Assembly (NCBI GenBank): GCA_963971285.1
Contig: OZ020246.1
Location: forward strand, 26,076,494-26,140,493
DNA: 64,000 nt
Source: Astropecten irregularis
Taxonomy: Eukaryota; Echinodermata; Asteroidea; Paxillosida; Astropectinidae
Reading direction: 5' to 3'
Shown here: positions 7,130-64,000 of the stretch, piece by piece
Layout: each line of letters opens with the position of its first letter
Position numbering within the stretch: the stretch's first letter is position 1
Program-made: the position numbers and the translations under genes
The notes under the pieces: generated by a model
What the model was told of the DNA's origin: nothing
Database searches by the model: none
Seen by the model: only the letters and a program-made list of their open reading frames with translations

Positions 7130-7445
7130 GAAACTGACTGAATTTACAGTCATTGAAAAGTGAACAAAGAAAAATTGACTTGAGCGGGATTCGAACCGGC
7201 AACCTCCTGTTGCCGGTAGAACGCCTATAGGCATTCTACCAACTGAGCTATCCAGCCATATGTTTGTGGTGATCCCAATAGACAATTATCTTTGTTTGTT
7301 TGGCAGTCAGAAGCCATGAAACCACGCACACACCACTATATCCCAAGGATCGTTTTTATCGATACTCGCAGCAATGCTGCAACCTGAGAATGGAACATGG
7401 GGGATCACTCAAAGAGGATACGGCTTTAGTCAATCCCGCTCCAGT
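7130..7445 (-). repeat. tRNA-derived SINE
   Basis: Reverse complement contains tRNA-like A box TAGCTCAGTTGGTAGAA and B box GGTTCGAATCCC, a degenerate cloverleaf, then a tail shared with other copies (TTTCTTTGTTCACTTTTCAA). The region upstream of the tRNA part (GATCCTTGGGATATGG-like) is also shared. Copies at 10630-10905, 29600-29860, 36200-36365, 40080-40330, 44765-45170 and 45182-45445 show a dispersed SINE, not a tRNA gene. Confidence 0.8.
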
Positions 7446-41400: not shown

Positions 41401-44400
41401 TGATGGTACTAGCAGCATTATACATTCATGATGAAATGCATAGTTTATCGATTACCCGCGTTCCGTCTCAAGGGAGGCTTGCAAAATGTTACACAGTGCC
41501 GTGTGAAAGGATGTAAAAACGGCCAGAATAAAACTGTTTTGTAAGATTTCATAGCCACGAGAACATTTCTCAATGCTTGAGAGTTTTTTTAGCGTCGTGT
41601 GAAAAGGCCTAAAGATGACTGAACAGCATGGCTGGTAGAGCAATGGAATAAGATCATATGAATCCACAATTCAACAATATCCTGGACTATGTCCAGGTTT
41701 AACTAAAAGGTAGTATTATACTTTGGTAAGAGACCAAAACAGAAATGTTCACAGATTTACTTATAACTTACAGGGTATGAAGATGGTGGTGGTAGAGACA
41801 TACTGTTAATTTTCTTCTACCTGAAATGGTGTATTATCCAGAAATAAGTAAAAAAATGACCGAAAATCTTTTTGATCTTTTAAAAGATCAAAAATAAAAG
41901 AGAAAAAACTTAAGAAATACTGTGGCCGTTTTTCGCTGTTTTCTCAAAAAGTGGGTAACGTATGGGACTGAAATTTTCAGAGATTGCTTTTACTGTATCT
42001 GCCTTGATATTTTTGTCCACAAATCTGTATTTCTTAGACAAAAACCAAAGTATGATACTACCTCTAAAGAACAAGACATAAATTTTTTTGAGACCATGTC
42101 ACTCAAAGAAAACTTACCAACTGTCACAGTAAATGTACAGGAATTTGAGTTGCCAGCCTGATCGGTAGCTCTGTAAGTAATACTGTAAGTTCCAAAGGTG
42201 AAGAAGGAACCAGTTCCTTGCTGTGCATTGGAGGTCAGGACAACAGTTGGAGGAATTCCGGTGTTGTCAGTAGCTGTTGGTGAATTCCAAGTCACTGTTG
42301 CTCCATTTTGATTGCCAGTTGTGACTTGACGAACAATGTTGTCTGGGCAGGTAATTGCTGGTGGTACACCATCGCCTGAAAACAAGTTTTATGAATTATT
42401 AAGTCACATAGATATATTTCAACAAGATAAAGATTACCAACCCAAGTCAATAATTCAATACATGACATACAATCTTAGAGCTGCAAATAGTTAAAAACAA
42501 AATAGATATTTTTAGTTCAATATTCCTATTAAACACAACAAACAAATCCAATCAAACAGTCCAGTGACAACTGTTTCACAAATGAGAAACATTTGCTATA
42601 GTACAACTGTCATTCTAGACATCACAGAGTCAAACCTCAGTTCAGTCCAATGTATTCATTCTGTCTCTATATTACCACATTACTTTCATTAATATCAGGG
42701 AAATTGGGATGAACCATCAATGAACCAAGAAAAACAATATTTACGTTCAGTTATTGTAACCGTAAAAGAGCACTGATTCCTGTTGCCAGCAGCATCCCGA
42801 TAGACGTAGGTTACTGTAGTCTGACCAACTTGGAACATATCATTCGAGTTGTGGGTGTTGGACACCAGAGTCACACTGCCAGAATTATCAGATACGGTAG
42901 GATCAGCCCAAGTCACCTCCCTTCCACCACTTCCAAAATCAATTGTGAAAGCTAAATTGACTGGGCATACAACCACGGGTGGCACTCCATCAACTAATGA
43001 AAGAAGGAGGAAAAAGAAAATTCATAACTTCAAAAATATTCATCAAATTTAAAGTAAATAAAATCGTGAAAGATTAAGAAATTCATCTTACTTCTTCAGT
43101 GAAAAGAGCAAAGGGTTCATTTTAAAAGACTGAATAATGGTTTTATGTTGGTCAAACATCACAAAGTTCTTTTTGAAGGGTTGGAGAAATCCCAAAAGAC
43201 TAATCCTGTATGTTGAGAAAAATCATTTCAAATCAACCAATCCTTGCAGTGTATCCCCACAGTAATAATTTGACGGAGCATAAATTCTATTGTTGCCACA
43301 CAAAAGGCGGGAAGGGACACTGCAGTAATGACGGATGGGATAATGTGCTGTCGAATCGGTGTATATTACCAAAAGTGCTGTGCATTTTCGGAGCTGTTGA
43401 AAATATGATAGGTTGCCCTAGCTCCGATTTATGAAATGAATGACAACGCTATATTGCGCATGTGTCGATAATGTGCACGATCAATGAAGGCATAGCGCTG
43501 TATGTAGGAGTGTGTAAAACATGCTACAACAATTGTTGCGGTGACATATACATGAGTTTCTGGTCTCGATCTACGTGCGTGTTTAGGAATCTTGCAATGA
43601 TTTGGTGCCGGCAACCTTACAGAATATTCAGTCAGAATGGTTCATTACTTGCTCAGCGTGACATGTCACATTTCTTACCGCAAAATCTGTGCCGAAGCCG
43701 GCTGCAACCCACGGTACTAAGCACGACTTGACTGCACCAAATACACATGTTGTACATACGATGTAGGCCTGCTTACTGCACAATTGCAAATTTGCGACTG
43801 TGTATTTCGCAGGTGCACTTCGTATGCTTTGAATGGTGCGGCGCGGTTACCAATCTTGGAATTTTCTGGATGCAATACTGCTGCATGAATCGGACCATGC
43901 GGCCACGTGGTGTGCATGCGGTGTGCATGATGCATCGTACGCGATATGTTTAAGTCTTCTTTCGTGCGATCGTCGCTTTAGGAAGGCTTTCCACAATATT
44001 TTTCAAGTATGCGAAAAGTTTGTTTCTACTTGGCAAAATGGAAAAAAAAGGACTTAAATTAAAGTATGTATTGTACAATTTAAACTTTTTGGGGTTGTTT
44101 AAAATTAGGCAAATGTCAGTCTACTTTTTAAAATGTTGGTTTCGTCATGGTTTTGTTATACCGTTTTTGAAATTTTAAAACCGGATGGCTAAATCCAAAG
44201 CGGGATCTCAGAAATCCGTTTGTAAAGCACAGCACTAATTACCACATTACTTTTATTAATATCAGGGCAATTGGGATTACTCATTATTTAATAAAGAAAA
44301 ACATTAATTACCTCCAGTTATTGAAACTGTAAAAAAAATGGAAAAAAGGGGAATTTGAGACCGCTTCACTCAAAGAAAACTTACCAACTGTCACAGTAAA

Positions 44401-47400
44401 TGTACAGGAATTTGAATTGCCAGCCTGATCAGTAGCTCTGTAAGTAATACTATAAGATCCAAAGGTGAAGAAGAAACCAGGTATTTGCTGTGCATTGGAG
44501 GTCAAGACAACAGTTGGAGGAATTCCGGTGTTGTCAGCAGCTGTTGGTGAAGTCCAAAACACTGTTGCTCCATTTTGATTGCCAGTTGTGATTTGCTGAA
44601 ATACGTTGTCCGGGCAGGTAATTGTTGGTGGTACACCATCGCCTGAAAACAAAATTCATAAGATATGAAGTCAGCACATAATGGAACAAGACAAAGTTAC
44701 CACCCCAAGTCAACAACTCAAGAAATATCATGTAATCCAGAAGTTAACAGTGTAAAAATTCAATCATCAAATAACCACAAGGGAAACTGCACACACCGCC
44801 ATATCACAGCGCCACACCGCGTGGTTTCCTGGCTTTTGACTGCCAAACGAACAAAGATAATGGGAGACTTTTGAGAACCGGTCTTCAAGTCAACAGCGCA
44901 CGCGCACGCAACTGTGAGCATGGGCGCGTTGTTTTGGGCCTGCGCTGTTGTGCGTGTGCGTACACTGTTGACTTGAAGACCGTTTCTCAAAAAACTCCTA
45001 TTGACTATTGGTGTCACCACCAACATAGGGCTGGATGGCTGAGTTGGTAGAGCGCATGTACTGTATTCAGGAGGTAGCCGATTCAAATCTCGCTCCAGTC
45101 AATATTTCTTTGTTCACTTTTCAATGACTTTAAAATTCAGTCAGTTTCCATTGTGGTCATTTGATGATTGTATAAATTAAAAAAAGCCGTATCCTCTTTG
45201 AGTGATCCCACATGTACCATTCCCAGGTTGCAGCATTGCTGCGCATATCGGTATAAATGATCCCTGGGATATGGCGGTGTGTGCGTGGTTTCACGACTTC
45301 TGACTGCCAAACAAACAAAGATAATTGACTATTGGTGTCACCACCAACATAGGGCTCGATGGCTCAGTTGGTAGAGCACCTGTACAGATTCAGAAGGTCG
45401 CCGGTTCGAATCCCTTTAAGGGATTCAAACCGGCGACCTTCTTAATACCAATCCCTCCTGAATACCAATCAATTTTTCAACAAACACATCCATTCAAACA
45501 TTTCGGGTACAACTGATTCACAAATTAGAAACATATGCTATAGTACAACTGTCATTCCAGACATCGCAGAGTCAAACCTCAGTCCAGTCCAATTTGATTC
45601 ATTCTGTCTCTATATTACCACATTACTTTCATTAATATCAGGGAAATTGGGATTAACCATCACTGAAACAAGAAAAACAATATTTACGTTCAGTTATTGA
45701 AACCGTAAAAGAGCACTGATTCCTGTTGCCAGCAGCATCCCGGTAGACGTAGGTTACTGTAGTCTGACCAACTTGGAACATATCATTCGAGTTGTGGGTG
45801 TTGGACACCAGAGTCACACTGCCAGAATTATCAGATACGGTAGGATCAGCCCAAGTCACCTCCCTTCCACCACTTCCAAAATCAATTGTGAAAACTAAAT
45901 TGACTGGGCATACAACCACGGGTGGCACTCCATCAACTAATGAAAGAAGGAGGAAAAAGAAAATTGATAACTTCAAAGGTACTTATCAAATTTAAAGTAA
46001 ATAAAATAGCGAAAGATTCAGAAATTCATCTTACTTCTCGAGTGAAAAGATTAAAGGGTTCATTTTAAAAGACTGAGTAATGGTTTTTTGTTTGTCACAC
46101 ATAAGAGAGTACTTTTTGAAGGGTGGGAGAAAAGCCAAAAGGCAAATAATGTATGTTGAGAAAAATCAATTCAAATCAACCAATCCTTAAAAAGAAAAAG
46201 AACAAATTATTTAAATATTTTGTAAATTTGTAAATAATTTGAGAAGAAGAGGAAGAAAAAAACCAAAACACAGAACAAACGCAATAGCTTTTCCGTTATC
46301 GCGGAAATGCAAAAAAACAGAACAAAAACAATAGCTTTTCAGCTATCATAGAAAAGCCAATACACGGTACTATAAAGCTTCAGACATGGACAAAATGCAA
46401 AATAGGGGAATTTGAGACCATGTCACTCAAAGAAAACTTACCAACTGTCACAGTAAATGTACAGGAATTTGAATTGCCAGATTGATCAGTAGCTCTGTAA
46501 GTAATACTATAAGATCCAAAGGTGAAGAAGGAACCAGGTATTTGCTGTGCATTGGAGGTCAGGACAACAGTTGGAGGAATTCCGGTGTTGTCAAGAGCTG
46601 TTGGTGAATTCCAAAACACTGTTGCTCCATTTTGATTGCCAGTTGTGATTTGCTGAAATACGTTGTCCGGGCAGGTAATTGTTGGTGGCACACCATCGCC
46701 TGAAAAAAAATTCATTAAGATATGAATTCAGCACAAAATGGAACAGAACAAAGTTTACCAAATCAAGTCAACAACTCAAGAAATATCACGCAATCCAGAA
46801 GTTAACAGTGTAAATATTCTTGGAGTTAGGAGGGCCTGACGAGTTTCGATCCTAACAGGATCTATATCGAAGGCTAAATGGCAAGAGGACAAGAACATGC
46901 AACCAAATGTCAGCACAAATGGATGAGAAGGTGAGTACAAAAGAGGGGTGTATGAAGGTGAAGGTGGGTAGGATTAAATGTGAACAATGGAGTGATCCTG
47001 CTAGGATCGAAACATGTCAGGCCCTCCTAACTCCAAGCATTTTATAAATTTCAGGTCATTATTTTGACTAATGAGCAGTTTGCAACAGCTTATTATTTGT
47101 AGTGTAAAAATGCATCAGAAAATACATACCCGTAATTATAGTTAAATCTTAAAAAAAAACCCAAAGACATCAATTCAAACATTTCGGTTTCAACTGGTTC
47201 ACAAAAAAGAAACATATGCTATAGTGCAACTGTCATTCTAGACATCGCACAGTCAAACCTCAGTTCAGTCCAATTTTTTCCCATTCCGCCTCTATACACG
47301 AATCCGATGAGTGATTTATTTAGTTGGCCCCAGGCGCGGTTCTACGGGGCGGGGGGCTGTAGCCCCCAAAGTTTTGTCTAGCCCCCCAAAAGAAATGCAA

Positions 47401-59400: not shown

Positions 59401-62400
59401 TGCTCCATTTTGATTGCCAGTTGTGACTTGCTGAAATACGTTGTCCGGGCAGGCAATTGTTGGTGGCACACCATCGCCTGAAAACAAAATTCATCATATA
59501 TGAAGTCAGATATGAAACATTTGCTATAGTACAACTGTCATTCTAGACATTGCAGAGTCAAACCTCAGTCCAGTCCAATTTGATTCATTCTGTCTCTATA
59601 TTACCACATTACTTTCATTAGTATCAGGGAAATTGGGATGAACCATCAATGAACCAAGAAAAACAATATTTACGTTCAGTTATTGTAACCGTAAAAGAGC
59701 ACTGATTCCTGTTGCCAGCAGCATCCCGATAGACGTAGGTTACTGTAGTCTGACCAACTTGGAACATATCATTCGAGTTGCGGGTGTTGGACACCAGAGT
59801 CACACTGCCAGAATTATCAGATACGGTAGGATCAGGCCAAGTCACCTCCCTTCCACCACTCCCAAAATCAATTGTGAAAGCTAAATTGGCTGGGCATACA
59901 ACCACAGGTGGCACTCCATCAACTAAAGAAAGAAGGAGGAAAAAGAAAATTGATAACTTCAAAGGTACTTATAAAAAAAAAGTAAATAAAATCGTGAAAG
60001 ATTCAGGAGTTCATCTTACTTCTTCAGTGAAAAGAGCAACGGGTTCATTTTAAAAGACTGAATAATGTGTTCATGTTTGTCACACATAAGAGAATTTTTT
60101 TGGAAGGGTGGGAGAAAAGCCAAAAGACTTATCCTGTATGTTGAGAAAAATTATGTCAAATCAACCAATCCATGCTGTGTATCCCCACCGTAATAGTGTG
60201 AAGGAGCGTAAGTTCTTTTGTTGCCACACAAAAGACGCGCAGGGACACCGCAGTAATGACAGATGGGATGTAAATGTACAAACAAACATTTGAAAAAAGG
60301 GGGATTTGAGACCATGTAATTTAAAGAAAACTTACCAACTGTCACAGTAAATGTACAGGAATTTGAATTGCCAGATTGATCAGTAGCTCTGTAAGTAATA
60401 CTATAAGATCCAAAGGTGAAGAAGGAACCCGGTCCTTGCTGTGCATTGGATGTCAGGACAACAGTTGGAGGAATTCCGGTGTTGTCAGCAGCTGTTGGTG
60501 AATTCCAAAACACTGTTGCTCCATTTTGATTGCCAGTTGTGACTTGCTGAAATACGTTGTCCGGGCAGGTAATTGTTGGTGGCACACCATCGCCTGAAAA
60601 CAAAATTCATAAGATATGAAGTCAGCACATAATGGAACAAGACAAAGTTACCACCCCAAGTCAACAACTCAAGAAATATCATGTAATCCAGAAGTTAACA
60701 GTGTGAAAATGCAACACAAAATATATAATAATACTTCAATCTTGCAAACACAACAAAGACATCAATTCAAACATTTCAGTTTCAACTGTTTCACAAATGA
60801 GAAACATATGCTATAGTACAACTGTCATTCCAGACATCGCAGAGTCAAACCTCAGTTCAGTCCAATTTGATTCATTCTGTCTCTATATTACCACATTACT
60901 TTCATTAATATCAGGGAAATTGGGATTAACCATCACTGAAACAAGAAAAACAATATTTACGTTCAGTTATTGAAACCGTAAAAGAACACTGATTCCTGTT
61001 GCCAGCAGCATCCCGGTAGACGTAGGTTACTGTAGTCTGACCAACTTGGAACATATCATTCGAGTTGTGGGTGTTGGACACCAGAGTCACACTGCCAGAA
61101 TTATCAGATACGGTAGGATCAGCCCAAGTCACCTCCCTTCCACCACTTCCAAAATCAATTGTGAAAGCTGAATTGGCTGGGCACACAACCACGGGTGGCA
61201 CTCCATCAACTAATGAAAGAAGGAGGAAAAAGACAATTCATAACTTCAAAAATATTCATCAAATTTAAGGTCAAATAAATTGTGAAAGATTCAGAAATTA
61301 ATTTTACTTCTTCAGTGAAAAGAGCAAAGGGTTCATTTTAAAAGACAGAATTATGGTTTTATGTTTGTCACACATATGAGAGTTCTTTTTGAAGGGTTGG
61401 AGAAATGCCAAAAAACTAATCCTGTATGTTGAGAAAAATTATTTCAAATCAAACAATCCTTGCAGTGTATCCCCACAGTAATAATGTGAAGAAGCGTAAA
61501 TTCTATTGTTGCCACACAAAAGGCGGGTAGGTACACTGCAGTAATGACGGATGGGATGTTGTGCTGTTGAATTGGTGTTTATTACTGCATTCCTTTCATA
61601 CATATTAGGGCAATTGGTATTAATCATTATCTAACAAAGAAAACATTAAAAACAATCAGTTATTGAAAATGTAAAAAACAAAAATTGGAAAATACACGAA
61701 TTTGACACCACGTCACTCAAAGAAAACTTACCAATTGTCACAGTAAATGTACAGGAATTTGAATTGCCAGATTGATCAGTAGCTCTGTAAGTAATACTAT
61801 AAGATCCAAAGGTGAAGAAGGAACCAGATCCTTGCTGTGCATTGGAGGTCAGGACAACAGTTGGAGGAATTCCGGTGTTGTCAGCAGCTGTTGGTGAATT
61901 CCAAGTCACTGTTGCTCCATTTTGATTGCCAGTTGTGACTTGCTGAAATACGTTGTCCGGGCAGGCAATTGTTGGTGGCACACCATCGCCTGAAAACAAA
62001 ATTCATCATATATGAAGTCAGATATGAAACATTTGCTATAGTACAACTGTCATTCTAGACATTGCAGAGTCAAACCTCAGTCCAGTCCAATTTGATTCAT
62101 TCTGTCTCTATATTACCACATTACTTTCATTAGTATCAGGGAAATTGGGATGAACCATCAATGAACCAAGAAAAACAATATTTACGTTCAGTTATTGTAA
62201 CCGTAAAAGAGCACTGATTCCTGTTGCCAGCAGCATCCCGATAGACGTAGGTTACTGTAGTCTGACCAACTTGGAACATATCATTCGAGTTGCGGGTGTT
62301 GGACACCAGAGTCACACTGCCAGAATTATCAGATACGGTAGGATCAGGCCAAGTCACCTCCCTTCCACCACTCCCAAAATCAATTGTGAAAGCTAAATTG

Positions 62401-63721
62401 GCTGGGCATACAACCACAGGTGGCACTCCATCAACTAAAGAAAGAAGGAGGAAAAAGAAAATTGATAACTTCAAAGGTACTTATAAAAAAAAAGTAAATA
62501 AAATCGTGAAAGATTCAGGAGTTCATCTTACTTCTTCAGTGAAAAGAGCAACGGGTTCATTTTAAAAGACTGAATAATGTGTTCATGTTTGTCACACATA
62601 AGAGAATTTTTTTGGAAGGGTGGGAGAAAAGCCAAAAGACTTATCCTGTATGTTGAGAAAAATTATGTCAAATCAACCAATCCATGCTGTGTATCCCCAC
62701 CGTAATAGTGTGATGGAGCGTAAATTCTTTTGTTGCCACACAAAAGACGCGCAGGGACACCGCAGTAATGACAGATGGGATGTAAATGTACAAACAAACA
62801 TTTGAAAAAAGGGGAATTTGAGACCATGTAATTTAAAGAAAACTTACCAACTGTCACAGTAAATGTACAGGAATTTGAATTGCCAGATTGATCAGTTGCT
62901 CTGTAAGTAATACTATAAGATCCAAAGGTGAAGAAGGAACCGGGTCCTTGCTGTGCATTGGATGTCAGGACAACAGTTGGAGGAATTCCGGTGTTGTCAG
63001 CAGCTGTTGGTGAATTCCAAAACACTGTTGCTCCATTTTGATTGCCAGTTGTGACTTGCTGAAATACGTTGTCCGGGCAGGTAATTGTTGGTGGCACACC
63101 ATCGCCTGAAAACAAAATTCATAAGATATGAAGTCAGCACATAATGGAACAAGACAAAGTTACCACCCCAAGTCAACAACTCAAGAAATATCATGTAATC
63201 CAGAAGTTAACAGTGTGAAAATGCAACACAAAATATATAATAATACTTCAATCTTGCAAACACAACAAAGACATCAATTCAAACATTTCAGTTTCAACTG
63301 TTTCACAAATGAGAAACATATGCTATAGTACAACTGTCATTCTAGACATTGCAGAGTCAAACCTCAGTTCAGTCCAATTTGATTCATTCTGTCTCTATAT
63401 TACCACATTACTTTCATTAATATCAGGGAAATTGGGATGAACCATCACTGAAACAAGAAAAACAATATTTACGTTCAGTTATTGAAACCGTAAAAGAGCA
63501 CTGATTCCTGTTGCCAGCAGCATCCCGGTAGACGTAGGTTACTGTAGTCTGACCAACTTGGAACATATCATTCGAGTTGTGGGTGTTGGACACCAGAGTC
63601 ACACTGCCAGAATTATCAGATACGGTAGGATCAGCCCAAGTCACCTCCCTTCCACCACTTCCAAAATCAATTGTGAAAGCTGAATTGGCTGGGCATACAA
63701 CCACGGGTGGCACTCCATCAA
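8228..63721 (-). CDS. Giant HYR/EGF single-pass membrane protein (hyalin-like), 5' end outside window
   Basis: Sixty-four coding exons on the minus strand, all internal exons phase 1-1, so domains can be gained or lost without frame change. The window encodes about 4,800 residues: 49 HYR domains, 10 standard EGF exons, two EGF-like half domains flanking a furin-type site, one final EGF, one transmembrane helix and a 20-residue cytoplasmic tail. HYR domains are immunoglobulin-like modules known from sea urchin hyalin and other extracellular adhesion proteins. EGF modules serve as rigid spacers and binding units. I infer a very long cell-surface adhesion or matrix protein, possibly shed. The signal peptide and N-terminus are missing because the gene continues right of the window. 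Each exon encodes exactly one domain. No frameshift or stop was found in any exon. The near-identical array could also hide assembly errors. Confidence 0.85.
8525..8830. repeat. Dispersed repeat (GTGGGAGCATGCG family), copy 1
   Basis: Shares CAATCAATCAATCAGTGGGA, CGCATCTACCTTCGAGCAGT and ACCACGTGTCATG with 35395-35870 and, inverted, with 23590-23725. Contains no domain I recognise. Lies in the last intron of the HYR gene. Confidence 0.6.
9092..9211 (-). CDS. Membrane-proximal EGF exon
   Basis: 40-codon phase 1-1 exon, acceptor AACAG and donor GTAGGC. Reads KSVCEPNPCANNGTCHHV, then YECNCQPGWEGIRCK, a canonical six-cysteine EGF immediately before the transmembrane exon. Confidence 0.9.
9408..9522. 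repeat. Tandem pair of Penelope-type terminal repeat fragments
   Basis: Two consecutive copies of a 58-bp motif holding GATCCTGCTAGGATC, AAAACG/AAAATGCG, and GTCAGGCCCTCCTAACTCC. Same family as 9616-10113. Confidence 0.6.
9616..10113. mobile_element. Penelope-like element terminal region with hammerhead-like motif
   Basis: A pyrimidine-rich stretch (TCTCCTTTGTATTCATCCAC...) is followed at 9925-9965 by GCCT, CTGAGAA, a GATCC/GGATC hairpin, GAAAC, GCGTC and AGGC. This order matches a type I hammerhead ribozyme, as known in Penelope-like element terminal repeats. The CUGANGA core is degenerate. A trailer GCAGCAGTTTATTACTTGTA is shared with copies at 31755-31815, 32232-32625, 34976-35116 and 46815-47101. 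No reverse transcriptase was found. Confidence 0.55.
10117..10230 (-). CDS. Degenerate EGF-like exon
   Basis: 38-codon phase 1-1 exon. It reads ATLNLCENGGVPV and ends SFYCRCPYGYTGMFCEK, keeping only four EGF cysteines. The missing half may be supplied by exon 11679-11765 across the microexon at 10992-11033. The acceptor is a tandem CAGCAG, allowing a one-residue variant. Its donor lies directly beside a Penelope-type repeat. Confidence 0.8.
10630..10905 (-). repeat. tRNA-derived SINE
   Basis: Minus-strand copy with TGGCTCAGTTGGTAGAGCGC (A box) and GGTTCATATTACGC-like degenerate B box, plus the shared tail. More complete than the 36200-36365 copy. Confidence 0.75.
10992..11033 (-). CDS. 42-nt microexon encoding an RKRR furin-type site
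   Basis: Acceptor with a pyrimidine tract ending AACAG and a strong donor GTGAGT bound 42 nt that fit phase 1-1. They encode ATRKRRDTHDMHD in frame with both neighbours. RKRR/D is a consensus proprotein convertase site. It lies just N-terminal of the last EGF-like modules and the membrane helix. Skipping the exon keeps the frame, so it could be alternative. Transcript proof is lacking. Confidence 0.55.
11034..11678. other. Intron with one dispersed repeat fragment
   Basis: No exon seen. About 11459-11640 carries a repeat also found at 907-1050 and 36765-36875 (AAATAAAATCAGTATGCCA, GGTTTTTGGTGC). An AT dinucleotide run lies near 11283-11303. Confidence 0.4.
11679..11765 (-). CDS. EGF-like half-domain exon
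   Basis: 29-codon phase 1-1 exon, donor GTAAGT. Reads SPVSNPCTSAPCQANQRCFF and ends TATMYICR: four cysteines in the spacing of EGF cysteines 1-4, without the C-terminal CxxGFxGxxC part. It probably combines with the four cysteines of exon 10117-10230. Confidence 0.75.
12001..12112. mobile_element. 112-bp MITE, TGGGAGACTTTTGAG termini
   Basis: Near-palindromic element with ends TGGGAGACTTTTGAGAACC and TTAAAAGTCTCCCA and an inner TCAACAGCGC/GCGCTGTTGA pair. The same family interrupts a SINE at 44861-45000. Confidence 0.75.
12229..12486 (-). CDS. HYR exon h1
   Basis: 86 codons, phase 1-1. Has TPPTISGCPTQGVTG, TATDNSGGQVTRTSNRSPGQ, YTFTDPSGNQAFCSF and ends VTVSG. Closest to h2, h3, h7 and h11. 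Confidence 0.92.
12600..13530. other. Intron sequence without recognised feature
   Basis: No HYR or EGF exon. A GATGCGTCAAACAGGCGCAT motif is duplicated near 12760-12805. A TGTAC-rich palindromic stretch lies at 13388-13455. Part of it may belong to the BEL/Pao relic that follows. Confidence 0.3.
13535..14180 (+). mobile_element. BEL/Pao retrotransposon relic, 3' end of pol
   Basis: Plus-strand coding remnant, antisense within the HYR gene intron. Key motifs: LTPNHLLLLRQ, DLYKRRWRQVQYLADVF and LPQLQKRQKWLHPQRN in one frame, then SLVRYENTSRSKWHLG and KTQAGVYDTPTNKICLLE in another. These match the integrase C-terminal region and the DUF5641 tail of BEL/Pao elements. It is dead: an in-frame TGA at 13860-13862, another stop after RNIVTES, and a frame change near 13946. 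No LTR identified. Confidence 0.85.
14319..14576 (-). CDS. HYR exon h2
   Basis: 86 codons, phase 1-1, acceptor TTCAG and donor GTAATT. Variant residues GVSAAAPSGSTTTTVTWIEP and YTFADTSGNQATC. Confidence 0.92.
14676..14936 (-). CDS. HYR exon h3 (block copy 1)
   Basis: 87 codons, phase 1-1. Reads TATAQSGATSTAVSWIEPTA and FIGQTNIVYTFTDPSGNVATC. First exon, in genomic order, of a four-exon block repeated at h7-h10. Confidence 0.92.
15571..15828 (-). CDS. HYR exon h4 (block copy 1)
   Basis: 86 codons, phase 1-1. SATAPAGATSAVVTWTEP and NAMVTYSFFDPSGNQATCTF. Essentially identical to h8. Confidence 0.92.
15977..16400. mobile_element. 424-bp hAT-like MITE with 8-bp target duplication
   Basis: Ends CATAGAGCTATATTAAAATT and AATTTAAATATAGCTCTATG are inverted for about 36 bp (through ACTAGAGCGCTAGCT). 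Both sides are flanked by AATCTGCA (15969-15976 and 16401-16408), an 8-bp duplication as made by hAT-type transposases. The interior is non-coding. A right-truncated copy at the same site is present in the second block (19891-20277). Confidence 0.85.
16812..17150. mobile_element. Tc1/mariner-like MITE, CAGTAAT termini, TA flanks
   Basis: Left CAGTAATTTGAGCACACA and right TGTGCTCGAATTACTG are inverted and flanked by TA. Inner arms GGTGCCCTCTATTGATTAAA / TTTTAATCAATAGAGGGCGCC. Related copies: 3715-4245, 20285-20545, 31890-32135, 33376-33701. Confidence 0.8.
17280..17543 (-). CDS. HYR exon h5 (block copy 1)
   Basis: 88 codons, phase 1-1. Reads EDGGTDTQAPMVMNCPTQGV, GVLPQGSSSVVVNWTPP and SFQLGTTDITYTFTDPSGNQ. 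Same protein as h9. Confidence 0.92.
17660..18010. repeat. Diverged member of the AAATGTTCACAGATTTAC repeat family
   Basis: Shares AAATGTTCACAG, ACATACTGT, CTGAAATGCTGTA and a final GTATTATGCCTTT with 31141-31496, 34368-34728, 39581-39943 and 41705-42067. The corresponding copy in the duplicated block is 21080-21415. Confidence 0.5.
18145..18405 (-). CDS. HYR exon h6 (block copy 1)
   Basis: 87 codons, phase 1-1. A divergent HYR: FNCPQNMIVGPDPGQ, TWQDPTATDNSGVQPN, YTFWDASFNNAACSF, ending SITVQ. Differs from h10 at few residues (EHPQ versus EPPQ, GRVY versus GGVY). Confidence 0.9.
18575..18835 (-). CDS. HYR exon h7 (block copy 2)
   Basis: 87 codons, phase 1-1. TATAPSGSTSTTVSWTEP and GGTNVVYTFTDTSGNVATC. 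Paralogue of h3 in the duplicated block and also close to h11. Confidence 0.92.
19487..19744 (-). CDS. HYR exon h8 (block copy 2)
   Basis: 86 codons, phase 1-1. Sequence matches h4 almost exactly, differing at the last residues (VSVFG for VSVSG). Confidence 0.92.
19891..20277. mobile_element. Right-truncated copy of the 424-bp hAT-like MITE
   Basis: Begins CATAGAGCTATATTAAAATT after the same AATCTGCA flank as 15977. The right terminus and about 0.5 kb of following sequence are missing, and a short insertion (near 20006-20035) is present. It joins directly to the truncated MITE at 20285. Confidence 0.75.
20285..20545. mobile_element. Left-truncated Tc1/mariner-like MITE
   Basis: Keeps the core (TGTACACCGCCAATCATC, GGGAAGCTGGAAAGCTAATC) and right end GTGTGCTCGAATTACTG, then TA. 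The left end is lost in the deletion that removed the right end of the neighbouring hAT-like MITE. Confidence 0.7.
20682..20945 (-). CDS. HYR exon h9 (block copy 2)
   Basis: 88 codons, phase 1-1. Protein identical to h5 over the visible HYR domain (MVMNCPTQGVFGVLPQGSSS, TDITYTFTDPSGNQATC). Confidence 0.92.
21548..21808 (-). CDS. HYR exon h10 (block copy 2)
   Basis: 87 codons, phase 1-1. FNCPQNIIVGPDPGQ, DVGGVYVVSYTFWDAS and NNAACSFSITVQ. Paralogue of h6. Confidence 0.9.
21978..22238 (-). CDS. HYR exon h11
   Basis: 87 codons, phase 1-1. TATAQSGATSTAVSWTEP and GGTNVVYTFTDPSGNVATC. It sits where a third copy of the block would begin, so it may be the ancestral edge of the h3-h10 duplication. 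Confidence 0.92.
22673..22933 (-). CDS. HYR exon h12
   Basis: 87 codons, phase 1-1. GGGTDTIPPTVQNCPTQA, TATDDSGGFVTVTSTRSPGQ and IDYTFTDPSGNAATCHFDV. Sister of h13 and h14. Confidence 0.92.
23165..23430. repeat. GAGTC-rich minisatellite, short tract
   Basis: Two tandem units of about 120 bp built from GAGTC-type motifs (for example CAGGTCGAGTCCGAGTCTGA). Same motif vocabulary as the larger tracts at 23990-25380 and 25893-26490. Confidence 0.8.
23590..23725. repeat. Dispersed repeat (GTGGGAGCATGCG family), inverted copy
   Basis: Contains GGAGACCGAAGGAGTACCGC, AGGTAGATGCGGCAACG and GCATGCTCCCACAGATTGAT, the reverse complement of motifs at 8525-8830 and 35395-35540. Confidence 0.6.
23990..25380. 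repeat. Long GAGTC minisatellite
   Basis: About 1.4 kb of tandem units of roughly 24-36 bp of the form GTAGGTCCGAGTCCACAAC-GAGTCAGAGTC, with AGAGTC added or lost between units. Purely intronic, between h12 and h13. Nested higher-order periodicity is visible (a run of units at about 24150-24360 recurs at about 24510-24720). Confidence 0.92.
25508..25768 (-). CDS. HYR exon h13
   Basis: 87 codons, phase 1-1. GGVIDTIPPTVQNCPTQ, LQRSAPTGATSVIVSW and YTFTDPSGNTATCHFDVIVS. The HYR sequence is identical in protein to h14. The two exons, their flanks and the adjoining minisatellite were duplicated together. Confidence 0.92.
25893..26490. repeat. GAGTC minisatellite, second tract
   Basis: About 0.6 kb of the same units as 23990-25380, followed by the same unique border (CATCTGTATTTGTGACTCGA, then TTACCAACACTGCTGTGTTT). 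The tract and exon h14 form a duplicate of the tract and exon h13. Confidence 0.9.
26606..26866 (-). CDS. HYR exon h14
   Basis: 87 codons, phase 1-1, identical in HYR protein sequence to h13. Duplicated intron flanks of about 200 bp on each side show a very recent tandem duplication of about 1.1 kb. Confidence 0.92.
27032..27292 (-). CDS. HYR exon h15
   Basis: 87 codons, phase 1-1. GGVTDNIPPAIQNCPMQGV, TATDNSGGLVTVTSTRSPGQ and TCQFDVRVSG. Diverged sister of h12-h14. Confidence 0.92.
27348..27589. repeat. GGGGCCAATTTCA-family repeat
   Basis: Starts GGGGCCAATTTCACGGCCC and ends TATATGAAATTGACCCC in inverted orientation, about 242 bp. Non-coding. Confidence 0.65.
27722..27946. repeat. GGGGCCAATTTCA-family repeat
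   Basis: Starts GGGGCCAATTTCATGGC and ends GTGAAATTGGCCCC, opposite in orientation to the copy at 27348. Confidence 0.65.
28076..28321 (-). CDS. HYR exon h16
   Basis: 82 codons, phase 1-1, the shortest HYR here. GDNINPTITGCPNSIYRN, TDNSGVSTLESVSHQPN, YVYRDPSGNRAVCSFFITV. Marks the border between the EGF block and the C-terminal HYR block. Confidence 0.9.
28430..28665. repeat. GAGCC-rich interspersed repeat, copy 2
   Basis: Contains CTCGGCTCCGGCTCAGGCTC at one end and a GAGCCAGAGCCGGAGC run at the other. Inverted relative to 2545-2735. Confidence 0.5.
28944..29066 (-). CDS. EGF exon e10
   Basis: 41 codons, phase 1-1, six cysteines. VGNPCTSNPCQNGGVC, YFVCQCPSGFTGVSCETP. The donor region GTAGTAAGT offers two in-frame sites three bases apart. 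Confidence 0.92.
29250..29600. other. Intron with CA microsatellite and A-rich repeat debris
   Basis: An ACACACACAC tract lies near 29331-29348, followed by A-rich sequence and a distinctive GACAGACAGACGGGACGAA tail. Probably a decayed mobile element; family not recognised. Confidence 0.3.
29600..29860. repeat. Rearranged tRNA-derived SINE (two halves head to head)
   Basis: The minus-strand tRNA part (GAGCCATCCAGCCCTACG) is followed by a plus-strand half (GGTATTCAGGAGGTCGCTGG, TTCGAATCCCGCTCCAGTC). The copy is therefore an inversion chimera. Confidence 0.65.
29866..30033. repeat. GGGGCCAATTTCA-family repeat, partial
   Basis: Starts inside the element (AAAACAGAATTAACAACC) and ends CCATGAAATTGGTCC. 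A further fragment lies at 30170-30221. Confidence 0.55.
30520..30675 (-). CDS. EGF exon e9
   Basis: 52 codons, phase 1-1, six cysteines with a long loop between cysteines 3 and 4 (CRNVFHSFDSDVDYMC). Ends ICPIGFVGHNCETVG. Confidence 0.9.
30680..31140. other. Intron without recognised feature
   Basis: No exon, RNA or clear repeat seen. GC content is somewhat higher than in the neighbouring introns. Confidence 0.3.
31141..31496. repeat. TIR repeat of the AAATGTTCACAGATTTAC family
   Basis: Ends TTTAAAGGTACTATCAATC and AAGTATGATATTACCTTTAA are approximately inverted. Internal AAAAGATCAACAATAAAAGA. A non-autonomous element repeated five or more times in this gene. Confidence 0.65.
31560..31718 (-). 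CDS. EGF exon e8
   Basis: 53 codons, phase 1-1, six cysteines. NGCNNSPCNNGGSC, a long N-rich loop (YNSYHSNKNNAFPSEY), then TCICQPGFSGVNC. Confidence 0.92.
31890..32135. mobile_element. Truncated Tc1/mariner-like MITE
   Basis: Left end CAGTAATCCGAAGCA after TA, and core motifs (TTATTGAAATCTGGGTGGCT, AAGCTAATCATGAGC). The right end is missing. Confidence 0.6.
32232..32625. mobile_element. Penelope-type terminal repeat
   Basis: Pyrimidine-rich leader, then GCCTTTGAGAAAGATCC-TGCAA-GGATTGAAACGCGTCAGGC (split here for length) and the GCAGCAGTTTATTACTTGTA trailer. Same hammerhead-like order as 9925-9965. Confidence 0.55.
32652..32786 (-). CDS. EGF exon e7
   Basis: 45 codons, phase 1-1, six cysteines. 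VTVNPNPCNSFPCQNGATC, ICVCLDGFLGQNCQ. Its donor lies about 25 bp from a Penelope-type repeat end. Confidence 0.92.
32917..33036. mobile_element. 120-bp palindromic MITE
   Basis: Ends AGGGCATGTTTGTTAAACGC and CGTTAAACAAACAGGCCCC are inverted, with an inner GGGATCCC/GGGATCCC pair. No coding potential. Confidence 0.6.
33117..33242 (-). CDS. EGF exon e6, seven cysteines
   Basis: 42 codons, phase 1-1. IQNPCQQAPCQNGGTCNTV, GACTSYTCLCPATHTGIHC. Has the extra cysteine of the eight-cysteine subtype (GAC) but Thr where the partner cysteine (PxC) should be. Confidence 0.9.
33376..33701. mobile_element. Complete Tc1/mariner-like MITE, 326 bp
   Basis: TA-flanked CAGTAATCCGAGCACACGG ... AAACTTGTGTTTGGATTACTG. 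Best-preserved member of the family in this window. Confidence 0.8.
33741..33983. repeat. GGGGCCAATTTCA-family repeat
   Basis: Starts GAGCCAATTTCACGGCCC and ends CTCCATGAAATTGGCCCC. About 243 bp and nearly complete. Confidence 0.65.
34032..34154 (-). CDS. EGF exon e5, eight cysteines
   Basis: 41 codons, phase 1-1. RNACEPNPCFNGASC, QDNCYAYSCQCTGCFTGYNC. Two cysteines beyond the EGF norm: one before cysteine 4 (DNC) and one in CxCxxC. Confidence 0.92.
34368..34728. repeat. TIR repeat of the AAATGTTCACAGATTTAC family
   Basis: Contains AAAGGTACAGTACATGATT, GAAATGTTCACAGATTTACG and the end TATGTATTATACCTTT. Fills most of the e5-e4 intron. Confidence 0.6.
34775..34909 (-). CDS. EGF exon e4, eight cysteines
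   Basis: 45 codons, phase 1-1. AQCSTNLCQNGGVC, FSCYEFTCACTGCFTGVFC. Eight-cysteine subtype. Confidence 0.92.
34976..35116. mobile_element. Penelope-type terminal repeat, rearranged
   Basis: An inverted fragment (GGAGGGCCTGACACG) joins a direct fragment (GGTAGGATCGTAATGCGTCA) and the GCAGCAGTTTATTACTTGTA trailer. Confidence 0.5.
35395..35870. repeat. Dispersed repeat (GTGGGAGCATGCG family) split by a MITE
   Basis: Left part 35395-35545 and right part 35815-35870 match the continuous copy at 8525-8830. The intervening 35575-35758 stretch is a separate inverted-repeat element. Confidence 0.6.
35575..35758. mobile_element. MITE with GGCTGCGTT(C/T)GAGC termini
   Basis: TTCTCTCGGTGGCTGCGTTC at left is inverted at right as GCTCAAACGCAGCCAAAGAG. 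Includes palindromic GAGTATACTC motifs. Non-coding. Confidence 0.65.
35888..36010 (-). CDS. EGF exon e3, eight cysteines
   Basis: 41 codons, phase 1-1. VDSCENNQCSNGAMCVP, TDNCLQYTCQCPPCFTGQFC. Eight-cysteine subtype. Confidence 0.92.
36200..36365 (-). repeat. tRNA-derived SINE, partial
   Basis: Minus-strand tRNA-like core (GCTCAGTTGGTAGAGCGCCT with TAGCTCAG variant) and shared tail. The 5' region present at 7130 and 10630 is absent. Confidence 0.7.
36585..36707 (-). CDS. EGF exon e2, eight cysteines
   Basis: 41 codons, phase 1-1. GNACQQNTCQNGGVC, PGSCTLFQCQCPDCFTGRSC. Eight-cysteine subtype. Confidence 0.92.
37127..37240 (-). CDS. EGF exon e1, seven cysteines
   Basis: 38 codons, phase 1-1. 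ANPCLSQPCMNGGVC, ESVTAYRCLCPECYSGNQC. Keeps the PxC extra cysteine but has Val where its partner (DNC) would be, the mirror image of exon e6. Confidence 0.9.
37241..38442. other. Intron separating HYR and EGF blocks
   Basis: No exon seen in 1.2 kb. A possible inverted-repeat element with TAGCGCTCC ends and GTGACGTCAC motifs lies at about 37338-37545. AT-rich sequence lies at 37850-37995 and a CCGT microsatellite at 38381-38396. Confidence 0.4.
38443..38694 (-). CDS. HYR exon h17
   Basis: 84 codons, phase 1-1. EDRTPPVLVTCPSDISF, PTATDNSGTVNLVSNNRNPG, YRFADVAGNSVTCSF, ending VEITE. Resembles array type B. Confidence 0.9.
38952..39095. repeat. Perfect-arm inverted repeat
   Basis: GAAGGTACTCATTTTGCAAG (continuing CTGTCCATGGAAT) at 38952 is inverted at 39063-39095, separated by about 78 bp. 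It could be the end region of a foldback element. Confidence 0.75.
39208..39456 (-). CDS. HYR exon h18
   Basis: 83 codons, phase 1-1. DNIPPSVVCPPNMQETI, LPTVSDNAGTTNLVSNTRN, YTYADSAGNQGQCTF, ending VTVTE. Same length as type B exons. Confidence 0.92.
39581..39943. repeat. TIR repeat of the AAATGTTCACAGATTTAC family
   Basis: Clear inverted ends TTAAAGGGATGGTACAGAAT and GTTCTGTACCATCCCTTTAA, 363 bp. The best-preserved termini of this family. Confidence 0.75.
40080..40330 (+). repeat. tRNA-derived SINE with internal insertion
   Basis: ACACCACCAACATAGGGCTG and GGTCGCTGGTTGGAATCCCG are parts of one SINE, separated by about 130 bp of unrelated sequence (about 40115-40245). Confidence 0.55.
40430..40710. 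repeat. Two tandem GGGTCGATTTCAC-family foldback repeats
   Basis: Copies at about 40430-40571 and 40572-40710 in the same orientation. Each has CGTAACT, ATCCCATCGTATCCTA-like arms and a GGTGAAATC(G/C)A end. Confidence 0.6.
40766..41023 (-). CDS. HYR exon h19
   Basis: 86 codons, phase 1-1. EDRVNPIIVCPDNIVEQV, TGNQNGANVIWSAPTASDNS, YSATDGSGNSASCSFTV. Same length and pattern as array type A, so probably its single-copy relative at the array border. Confidence 0.92.
41152..41606. mobile_element. 455-bp MITE with CTTTTCACACGAC termini
   Basis: CTTTTCACACGACCCTAAAA and TTTTAGCGTCGTGTGAAAAG are inverted, extending to AAAACTCTCAA. Internal palindromic copies of CTCAA(T/G)CATTGAG-like motifs. No TSD detected. 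Confidence 0.75.
41705..42067. repeat. TIR repeat of the AAATGTTCACAGATTTAC family
   Basis: Ends AAAGGTAGTATTATACTTTG and AAAGTATGATACTACCTCT are inverted. Very close in sequence to 31141-31496. Confidence 0.7.
42118..42993 (-). CDS. Array dimer u1: HYR exons A1 (42118-42375) and B1 (42745-42993)
   Basis: C-terminal dimer of the array. Type A exons have 86 codons and type B 83, all phase 1-1. A1 is the most divergent A copy (CPDNIVRQVTTG, QQGTGSFFTFGTYS, TDQAGN). B1 has CPVNLAFTIDFGSGG, TWADPTVSDNSGS and ends VTITE. Confidence 0.93.
42994..44384. other. Long array intron with MITE relic and about 1 kb unique insert
   Basis: 43247-43370 is the decayed right half of the MITE seen at 1499-1733. 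About 43390-44230 has no counterpart in other array units and no recognised coding sequence; it explains the long A1-A2 spacing. Confidence 0.45.
44385..45936 (-). CDS. Array dimer u2: HYR exons A2 (44385-44642) and B2 (45688-45936)
   Basis: A2 carries QQITTG, ATVFWTSP and IPGFFFTFG. B2 carries CPVNLVFTIDF and ends VSITE. The A2-B2 intron is enlarged by two SINEs, one containing a MITE. Confidence 0.93.
44765..45170 (+). repeat. tRNA-derived SINE interrupted by a MITE
   Basis: Plus-strand SINE with GGCTGAGTTGGTAGAGCGCA and shared tail. It is broken between GATAA and TTGAC by the element at 44861-45000. The neighbouring SINE at 45182 shows the unbroken GATAATTGACTATTGG. Confidence 0.8.
44861..45000. 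mobile_element. 140-bp MITE, TGGGAGACTTTTGAG termini, inside a SINE
   Basis: TGGGAGACTTTTGAGAACCG at left, inverted at right as CGTTTCTCAAAAAACTCCTA, with inner GTCTTCAAGTCAACAG arms. Same family as 12001-12112. Confidence 0.8.
45182..45445 (+). repeat. tRNA-derived SINE
   Basis: Plus-strand copy with GGCTCAGTTGGTAGAGCACC and GGTCGCCGGTTCGAATCCC. Followed immediately by a short inverted copy of its own B-box region (GGATTCAAACCGGCGACC). Confidence 0.8.
46442..48087 (-). CDS. Array dimer u3: HYR exons A3 (46442-46699) and B3 (47839-48087)
   Basis: A3 carries QQITTG, ATVFWNSPTALDN and IPGSFF. B3 carries CPANSAFTIDF, THNSNDMF and VTITE. The intron holds a Penelope-type fragment and a hAT-like MITE. 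Confidence 0.93.
46815..47101. mobile_element. Penelope-type terminal repeat, composite
   Basis: An inverted piece (GAGTTTCGATCCTAACAGGA, ATCGAAGGCTAAATGGCAAG) is followed by a direct piece (GATCCTGCTAGGATCGAAAC, GTCAGGCCCTCCTAACTCC) and the TTTGCAACAGCTTATTATTT trailer. Confidence 0.55.
47331..47637. mobile_element. 307-bp hAT-like MITE with perfect 8-bp target duplication
   Basis: CAGGCGCGGTTCTA and TAGAACCGTGCCTG are inverted. Both sides are flanked by GTTGGCCC (47323-47330, 47638-47645). Contains GGGGCTGTAGCCCCC and long C/A homopolymer runs. Non-coding and apparently young. Confidence 0.88.
48141..48301. repeat. Foldback: 36-bp inverted arms around a second hairpin
   Basis: GAGAGTAAGGCTTGCGGTGA (continuing CACCATGTATAA) is inverted at 48266-48301. 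Between the arms lies GACTAG-AGCACA-CTAGTC followed by GAAAC, a hairpin-plus-GAAAC layout reminiscent of Penelope or hammerhead-type sequences. Confidence 0.7.
48716..49589 (-). CDS. Array dimer u4: HYR exons A4 (48716-48973) and B4 (49341-49589)
   Basis: First dimer of the homogenised part. A4: QQITTG, ATVFWNSPTAADN, IPGSFF, ending VTVG. B4: PANSAF, NSNDIF (others NDMF), VSITE. Distance to the next A exon is 1,397 bp. Confidence 0.94.
50113..50986 (-). CDS. Array dimer u5: HYR exons A5 (50113-50370) and B5 (50738-50986)
   Basis: A5: QQVTTG, ATVFWNSP, IPGSFF, ending VTIG. B5: PANSAF, WADPT, THNSNDMF, VSITE. Unit length to A6 is 1,288 bp. Confidence 0.94.
51401..52274 (-). CDS. Array dimer u6: HYR exons A6 (51401-51658) and B6 (52026-52274)
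   Basis: A6: QQVTTG, ATVFWNSP, IPGSFF, VTVG. B6: PANSAF type. Unit length 1,397 bp. Confidence 0.94.
52798..53671 (-). CDS. Array dimer u7: HYR exons A7 (52798-53055) and B7 (53423-53671)
   Basis: A7: ATVFWNSP, IPGSFF, VTIG. B7: PANSAF type. Unit length 1,397 bp; its sequence is almost indistinguishable from u8, introns included. Confidence 0.94.
54195..55068 (-). CDS. Array dimer u8: HYR exons A8 (54195-54452) and B8 (54820-55068)
   Basis: Same protein as u7. Unit length 1,397 bp. Confidence 0.94.
55592..56294 (-). CDS. Array dimer u9: HYR exons A9 (55592-55849) and B9 (56046-56294)
   Basis: Second subtype. A9: IACPDN, ATVTWNSP, QQGSGSFF, VTIG. B9: PANLAF, WPDPT, NTRNSNDMF, VTITE. Its A-B intron is short (196 bp), giving a 1,116-bp unit. 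Confidence 0.94.
56708..57410 (-). CDS. Array dimer u10: HYR exons A10 (56708-56965) and B10 (57162-57410)
   Basis: Chimeric copy: A10 starts IACPDN like A9 but continues ATVFWNSP, IPGSFF, VTVG like A6. B10 is PANLAF/TRNS type. Unit 1,116 bp, a tandem copy of the stretch before it. Confidence 0.94.
57824..58697 (-). CDS. Array dimer u11: HYR exons A11 (57824-58081) and B11 (58449-58697)
   Basis: A11: ITCPDN, ATVFWNSP, IPGSFF, VTVG. B11: PANSAF/THNS type. Unit 1,396 bp; first half of a 2,512-bp higher-order unit. Confidence 0.94.
59220..59922 (-). CDS. Array dimer u12: HYR exons A12 (59220-59477) and B12 (59674-59922)
   Basis: A12: IACPDN, ATVTWNSP, QQGSGSFF, VTIG. B12: PANLAF/TRNS type. Unit 1,116 bp; second half of the higher-order unit. 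Confidence 0.94.
60336..61209 (-). CDS. Array dimer u13: HYR exons A13 (60336-60593) and B13 (60961-61209)
   Basis: A13: ITCPDN, ATVFWNSP, QQGPGSFF, VTVG. B13: PANSAF/THNS type. Unit 1,396 bp; corresponds to u11 and u15. Confidence 0.94.
61732..62434 (-). CDS. Array dimer u14: HYR exons A14 (61732-61989) and B14 (62186-62434)
   Basis: Protein identical in type to u12 (VTW, GSG, PANLAF, TRNS). Unit 1,116 bp. Confidence 0.94.
62848..63721 (-). CDS. Array dimer u15: HYR exons A15 (62848-63105) and B15 (63473-63721)
   Basis: A15 has GPGSFF like A13. B15 is PANSAF/THNS type. It is the most N-terminal dimer visible. The following intron (63722-64000) repeats the usual array intron, so the array continues beyond the window. 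Confidence 0.94.
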
Positions 63722-64000
63722 CTAATGAAAGAAGGAGGAAAAAGAAAATTCATAACTTCAAAAATATTCATCAAATTTAAGGTCAAATAAATTGTGAAAG
63801 ATTCAGAAATTAATTTTACTTCTTCAGTGAAAAGAGCAAAGGGTTCATTTTAAAAGACAGAATTATGGTTTTATGTTTGTCACACATATGAGAGTTCTTT
63901 TTGAAGGGTTGGAGAAATGCCAAAAAAATAATCCTGTATGTTGAGAAAAATTATTTCAAATCAAACAATCCTTGCAGTGTATCCCCACAGTAATAATGTG
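63722..64000. other. Array intron cut by the window edge
   Basis: Matches the B-side intron of the 1,396-bp units, including the start of the MITE relic (CAGTGTATCCCCACAGTAAT). The next A exon is expected a few hundred bases outside the window. Confidence 0.7.

Follow-up and report, generated by a model that had tools for sequence, protein, structure and literature searches.

In the MaSp2 spider-silk genes of Argiope, repeated exons are separated by two alternating intron types that are nearly identical within a gene; these introns group by gene, and unequal exchange was invoked to account for them (PMC9779670). Writing in 2022, the authors were unaware of any other eukaryotic gene with two alternating homogenised introns (PMC9779670). 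Here we describe an array of HYR domain exons in the sea star Astropecten irregularis, found in a window of 64,000 nucleotides (C9:26076494-26140493, where C9 is contig OZ020246.1 of assembly GCA_963971285.1), in which two intron types likewise alternate strictly and are uniform within the gene. Judged from the parts of the published accounts drawn on here and below, the array differs from MaSp2 in carrying one HYR domain per exon and in having a further level of organisation, two alternating types of A-B dimer.

Other known systems share single features with this locus. The primate NBPF genes, with their Olduvai domains, have triplet higher-order repeats of coding units and lineage-specific expansion (PMC11675761). 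The array described here is also a higher-order repeat of protein-coding units, but it joins two dimers in 2,512 bp, whereas NBPF repeats three units, with monomers of ~1.6 kb and an unrelated domain. Kringle IV-2 of LPA is an extracellular domain repeat homogenised with its introns or altered by unequal exchange. The same has been described for extracellular repeats in Tenascin-X, in exons and introns, and in Drosophila dumpy (cited in PMC9779670). All three systems, as these partial accounts present them, involve other domains. To our knowledge, none of them contains a nested two-type dimer repeat. In Strongylocentrotus purpuratus, 21 hyalin genes have been reported and EBR1_5 has seven HYR domains (PMC11212366, PMC5521101); compared with such sea urchin hyalins and HYR egg receptor-like proteins, so far as the sources consulted describe them, the present gene has 45 near-identical HYR exons of two types, and the regions of it that were scanned yielded neither a TSP1 nor a SEA match. 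None of the titles and abstract openings listed from the HYR and hyalin literature (echinoderms, sea urchin, starfish, adhesion G-protein-coupled receptor (GPCR)) reports the array. The process is already known; what this locus contributes is an instance in which each HYR domain occupies one exon and a second level of repetition is nested on the first.

Searching with a single A peptide and a single B peptide located 15 A and 15 B HYR exons in strict alternation on the minus strand of the window (42118-63721), which confirmed at 30 of 30 exons the alternation of one-domain exons of 249 and 258 nt given in a preliminary description of this sequence. A exons are 258 nt and B exons 249 nt, the reading frame is open in all 30, and all 29 introns joining them are GT-AG. 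The array continues for 10.2 kb beyond the window end, to window-equivalent 74193, with 8 further A and 7 further B exons, which brings the full array to 45 exons (23 A, 22 B) encoding 3,804 residues, with 44 of 44 introns GT-AG. Every domain corresponds to a single phase 1-1 exon, so the reading frame is preserved whatever the exon number. The array exons listed score 78-92 bits against the HYR family (PF02494; Pfam cut-off 21.7) in a search of the animal's own genome in which 150 of 808 candidates were scored. The locus is, on its predicted exon chain, a coding tandem array of HYR domains. Tandem Repeats Finder, whose longest period is 500, gives no call for it, and sequence search (E up to 0.01) found no solved-structure relative of one A-B pair. 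All results come from one assembly of 475.7 Mb in 168 contigs. Units (u) are A-B pairs numbered with their exons (A4/B4 is u4), iBA and iAB denote the B-to-A and A-to-B introns, and P and Q are the two dimer types. All parts within the window lie on the minus strand:

42118..63721, minus: A-B HYR array in the window, 15 A and 15 B exons, 29 introns
62848..64000, minus: third tetramer (A15, intron, B15 onward), cut at the window end
60336..62847, minus: tetramer of 2,512 bp (A13, B13, A14, B14 and introns)
57824..60335, minus: tetramer of 2,512 bp (A11, B11, A12, B12 and introns)
56295..57410, minus: u10, Q front and P back
53672..55068, minus: u8, long/long dimer
50987..52274, minus: u6, P-type, Q-type at the end
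63473..63721, minus: exon B15 (P type: PANSAF, THNS)
62848..63105, minus: exon A15
62186..62434, minus: exon B14 (Q type: PANLAF, TRNS)
61732..61989, minus: exon A14
60961..61209, minus: exon B13
60336..60593, minus: exon A13
59674..59922, minus: exon B12
59220..59477, minus: exon A12
58449..58697, minus: exon B11
57824..58081, minus: exon A11
57162..57410, minus: exon B10
56708..56965, minus: exon A10 (hybrid)
56046..56294, minus: exon B9
55592..55849, minus: exon A9
54820..55068, minus: exon B8
54195..54452, minus: exon A8
53423..53671, minus: exon B7
52798..53055, minus: exon A7
52026..52274, minus: exon B6
51401..51658, minus: exon A6
50738..50986, minus: exon B5
50113..50370, minus: exon A5
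49341..49589, minus: exon B4
48716..48973, minus: exon A4
47839..48087, minus: exon B3
46442..46699, minus: exon A3
45688..45936, minus: exon B2
44385..44642, minus: exon A2
42745..42993, minus: exon B1
42118..42375, minus: exon A1

The iBA and iAB introns alternate across all 44 introns, with two main length forms each in the core and longer forms at the edges. In transcript order, the P dimer is B-367-A-413 (1,287 bp) and the Q dimer B-196-A-522 (1,225 bp), together 2,512 bp. From u11 to u18, P and Q alternate four times over, and identity at lags of 1, 2, 3 and 4 units is 91.64, 99.47, 91.63 and 99.12%, with 279.7 gap bases at lag 1 and 0.2 at lag 2. Copies of the two-dimer block in u11-u18 are more alike than neighbouring units (99.47% versus 91.64%), and the excess of lag-2 over lag-1 identity across u4-u22 was matched in only 40 of 20,000 shuffles of unit order. 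The pairs u15/u17 and u7/u8 are very close (99.9%). Distances between successive A exons from A4 onward (1397, 1288, 1397, 1397, 1397, 1116, 1116, 1396, 1116, 1396 and 1116 bp), and the 2,512 bp separating both A11 from A13 and A13 from A15, reproduce the earlier values exactly; the steps of 1396 and 1116 bp are the same 2,512-bp period in another frame.

The residue differences follow this period, as had been reported. PANLAF/TRNS and PANSAF/THNS alternate through B10-B15 and on through B16 and B17 outside the window, and the period begins at B10, since B9 and B10 are both PANLAF/TRNS. Fixed differences between P and Q domains include THNS/TRNS and TVFW/TVTW. The tetra-domain higher-order repeat that had been proposed is real (99.5% identity two units apart versus 91.6% between neighbours) but local: it comprises four copies in u11-u18 and does not span the whole array, and u4-u8 have a dimeric organisation.

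Units outside the regular tetramer were typed at 100 diagnostic P/Q sites across u2-u22, with u11, 13, 15 and 17 as the P reference and u12, 14, 16 and 18 as the Q reference, which match by construction; u1 does not appear in the unit tables, since the intron following A1 is not an array intron. Unit u10 has 25 consecutive Q sites followed by 75 P sites with the switch inside exon A10, so that B10, the 196-bp intron and the start of A10 are Q and the remainder of A10 and the 413-bp intron are P. Unit u6 is P except at 2 sites and then Q at the last 17, in the end part of the A6-to-B5 intron, and u19 is P at 95 sites, with 3 neighbouring Q sites that form a patch and a single isolated Q site. 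These three units are P/Q mosaics, as unequal exchange and conversion predict. Other units are purer: u9 matches Q at 99 sites and neither type at the remaining one, and u21 and u22 are mainly P (96 and 90 sites). In u5, u7 and u8, a P front (27-28 sites) is joined to a Q back (71 sites) in a long/long dimer, with u8 introns of 367 and 523 bp. Units u2, u3, u4 and u20 are mixed, as expected for older units.

Comparison of introns with exons gave two answers depending on the dimer types compared. Within one type in u11-u18, copies differ by 0.5-0.8% in iBA, 0.5-1.1% in iAB, 0.5-1.1% in A and 0.5-0.6% in B, so the claim that introns are as conserved as exons holds there (0.5-1.1% for both). Between P and Q it fails, as iAB differs by 15.9% and iBA by 6.25% versus 3.3% in A and 3.0% in B (16% versus 3% in round numbers), and it fails again for u1-u3, whose introns are 67-94% identical to others in aligned bases, several with insertions. 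Variable columns among core C9 units number 20 of 258 in A, 15 of 249 in B, 38 of 367 in iBA and 122 of 414 in iAB. In C9 the ratio of nonsynonymous to synonymous variation (pN/pS) is 0.64 in A exons and 0.43 in B exons, and u4-u22 contain 22 nonsynonymous versus 18 synonymous variants, where about 2.3:1 is expected. The C9 exons thus seem restrained by selection, with introns apparently carried along in exchange.

Unequal exchange theory predicts diverged array edges. Identity to the best partner is 86.9-96.5% in u2-u4 and 97.9-99.9% in u5-u19, and at the far edge it is 93.6% in u20, 98.0% in u21 and 95.3% in u22; over 21 units it rises with distance from the edge (Spearman 0.62, p 0.003). 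Separately, the A4-to-B3 intron contains an insert (window 48148-48301) with perfect 34-bp terminal inverted repeats, within which 48224-48269 (plus strand) matches the histone 3' stem-loop family of Rfam (RF00032) at 36.7 bits.

Sister arrays of the same dimer lie on the plus strand of a second contig, C19, in block 1 (8 A and 7 B exons, 17865265-17892368) and block 2 (14 A and 13 B exons, 17947952-17967479). We compared 41 of these 42 exons, leaving out the A exon at 17865265, and excluded four gaps longer than 1,500 bp (4748, 2133, 55580 and 1749) from intron alignments and trees. FastTree separated C9 from C19 without a misplaced copy for A exons (44 sequences, support 0.83), B exons (42, 0.82), iAB (39, 0.99) and whole units (36, 0.99). 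The iBA tree (41) was not split by locus, as all 7 introns of C19 block 1 group with C9. The long iBA was matched on C9 and C19 only, with 40 of 65 candidates scored.

The dimer, which the C19 arrays have too, is supported as the older unit, and the tetramer as a younger one. Apart from the four longer gaps, both introns of the C19 dimers are long (351-369 and 510-521 bp), and for that reason the 196-bp and 413-bp forms each look derived by loss. P and Q thus look to bear complementary intron deletions, one each; we dropped the simpler idea that the short form is a deletion of the long within one dimer, since each type has one of the two deletions. The P-form iAB is more than a deletion: it shares 84.1% identity with Q and 85.7% with C19 block 1, and Q shares 89.5% with block 1.

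3' of both C19 blocks are conserved frames, GPS motifs (4.5e-15 and 4e-15) and 7tm_2 matches (2.9e-6, 7.4e-9 and 1.4e-8). The blocks look like the outer parts of two tandem adhesion-GPCR-like genes, and the sharing of the A-B dimer between the window gene and these receptor-like genes is new here. The frames between array and GPS, without a match in a Pfam search, might be GAIN, a label that only their position suggests and that Pfam does not confirm. We discarded a Reeler label for an 87-aa frame lying 5' of each block, as Pfam gave no match, and the view of the C19 array as an orphan without a gene, based on finding no neighbouring HYR exon and on pN/pS of about 1, was overturned by the GPS and 7tm_2 matches. 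A third GPS lies at 17835987, and in C19:17835987-17971518 the three are in tandem about 64-72 kb apart, two of them 3' of A-B HYR arrays. Elsewhere, same-strand GPS motifs occur some 10 kb from HYR exons at C11:10160533 and some 6.5 kb from those at C23:13274755, so adhesion GPCRs with HYR domains may be more common in this genome.

In C19, pN/pS is 1.12 for A and 1.40 for B, with 46 nonsynonymous versus 16 synonymous variants, near the neutral expectation; one further B variant is a stop only if placed alone in the consensus codon. All 41 exons are without stop or indel, whereas 36 of their introns show 20 distinct gap runs. The absence of stops alone says little because just about 2 would be expected without selection (2.4-3.2% of changes create one). 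The C19 exons appear to keep frame while residues vary, and relaxed and diversifying selection are both possible.

We consider it very probable that this is a hyalin-like HYR array that grew and was kept uniform by unequal exchange and conversion among misaligned dimers, with P/Q pairing leading to the tetramer. Dimer copies would multiply and become uniform through unequal homologous exchange and conversion upon misalignment; two dimer types would then have emerged, separated by complementary deletions and a 16% diverged iAB. Because this divergence should favour like-with-like pairing, exchange would now tend toward the 2,512 bp register and produce the tetra-domain repeat. The anatomy, the lag pattern, the mosaics, the diverged edges and the clustering of most parts by locus are direct observations; that the exchange was unequal crossing-over, that a pairing bias sets the register and that exchange continues today are readings of them. 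The earlier proposal of crossing-over and conversion on dimers and then tetramers accordingly keeps the support of the mosaics, the edges and the clustering of everything except iBA, and its tetrameric stage shrinks to four copies. Its word "active" fits the small divergence, but a recent burst would look alike.

Several observations weigh against unequal exchange as the explanation. Same-type copies are equally explicable by a recent burst through another duplication mechanism, u5, u7 and u8 could be an ancestral form and not recombinants, and the exon chain is predicted from sequence alone. The failure of iBA to cluster by locus means that old variants survive or that the loci exchange. P and Q iAB are also further apart (15.9%) than Q is from C19 block 1 (10.5%), so homogenisation left an old difference standing.

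The burst has its own version of events, in which the tetramers were produced a single time, by one large block duplication or a few, and no homogenisation is under way. The very close pairs u15/u17 and u7/u8 are what such saltatory amplification would leave, but both mosaic units (u6, u10) as well as the u19 patch require exchange after P and Q diverged, identity is graded from edge to middle, and exons, iAB and whole units are uniform by locus, so we regard it as rather unlikely. It is very improbable that selection for a four-domain protein module, not recombination, maintains the P-Q order: the fixed P/Q residue differences and the constrained look of C9 exons would suit it, but the introns share the period with within-type uniformity equal to that of exons, the tetramer occupies only part of the array, and hybrid units exist. 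Slightly less credible still is an assembly artefact placing allelic copies or repeats end to end, to which some almost identical units and an array judged from an assembly without reads lend themselves, but the 104 kb contains no N, 13 of 22 B, 18 of 23 A, 16 of 22 iBA and 20 of 22 iAB sequences are distinct and so carry copy-specific variants, unit intron lengths differ, lag-4 identity in u11-u18 (99.12%) is below lag 2 and so excludes a simple larger-block copy, and arrays occur on C19 too.

The locus is a natural example of how a repetitive gene grows and stays uniform, most likely by misaligned exchange. A 32 kb stretch displays the likely ancestral dimer, two derived dimers, hybrids and the tetramer, with sister arrays as a control, and this clarity of stages offers a clean case for testing how higher-order repeats in coding genes start. 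Also of interest is one domain pair common to a matrix-like gene and receptor-like genes. The protein may be a long extracellular adhesive rod, and should individuals differ in domain number, a surface protein would shift in length by hundreds to thousands of residues in in-frame steps. A highly speculative extension, which we think very improbable, is that the same A-B HYR rod serves a secreted matrix protein encoded on C9 as well as the two receptor genes of C19, that like arrays bind, and that polymorphic domain number sets a recognition-like matrix-receptor match.

Older HYR exons adjoin the array on its 3' side:

40767..41021, minus: A' exon body, an older HYR of A type sharing 64% aa identity with A, just 3' of the array
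39212..39454, minus: B' exon body, an older HYR of B type sharing 57% aa identity with B
38447..38692, minus: another older exon body of B type, sharing 51% aa identity with B
12233..28319, minus: 16 more-diverged HYR exons, of one gene or neighbouring genes

Because A' and B' adjoin the array, the A-B pair perhaps arose in the window gene. EGF matches over cut-off lie 3' of the array near 32.7, 29.0 and 9.1 kb, with a sub-cut-off match near 37.2 kb; 5' of it are seven HYR exons at window-equivalent 75.5, 77.7 and 83.7-86.5 kb and one CUB match at about 78.4 kb (24.0 bits, cut-off 21.4). If all belong to one gene, the stretch holds 71 HYR exons. No GPS lies near the window gene, the closest of those listed on C9 being at 26998543 and 23865172 (92 of 92 candidates scored), and positions 1-39996 and 74001-103999 of the minus strand gave no TSP1 or protease match, nor was SEA matched in the parts scanned. 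The egg bindin receptor EBR1 has TSP1 and metalloprotease parts beside CUB. Hyalin is the principal protein of the hyaline layer around the embryo. The window gene shows the tandem HYR repeats of hyalin, and we describe it as a putative HYR-rich, hyalin-like gene with EGF and CUB matches nearby and without GPS.

Among the diverged HYR exons, window 15575-22227 contains an apparent block duplication, with pairs 20931/17529, 21797/18394 and 22227/18824 spaced at 3,402-3,403 bp and 19736/15820 at 3,916 bp. Near-threshold tRNA-like matches occur at window 10658-10730, 36258-36330 and 7176-7257, the first two alike and perhaps tRNA-derived repeats. The mitochondrial contig (C168, 16,335 bp) contains a COX1 fragment whose best score, 345.7 bits, comes with genetic code table 9 (echinoderm and flatworm), a small lead over table 13 (343.0) and ahead of tables 4, 21 and 5 (340.9, 339.9 and 338.1); AAA occurs at positions that usually hold Asn, and AGA at those that usually hold Ser. 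Elsewhere in the assembly, C131:32162-33484 holds a 552-codon COX1 frame that lacks TGA, unlike the mitochondrial copy, and this may be a bacterial contig.

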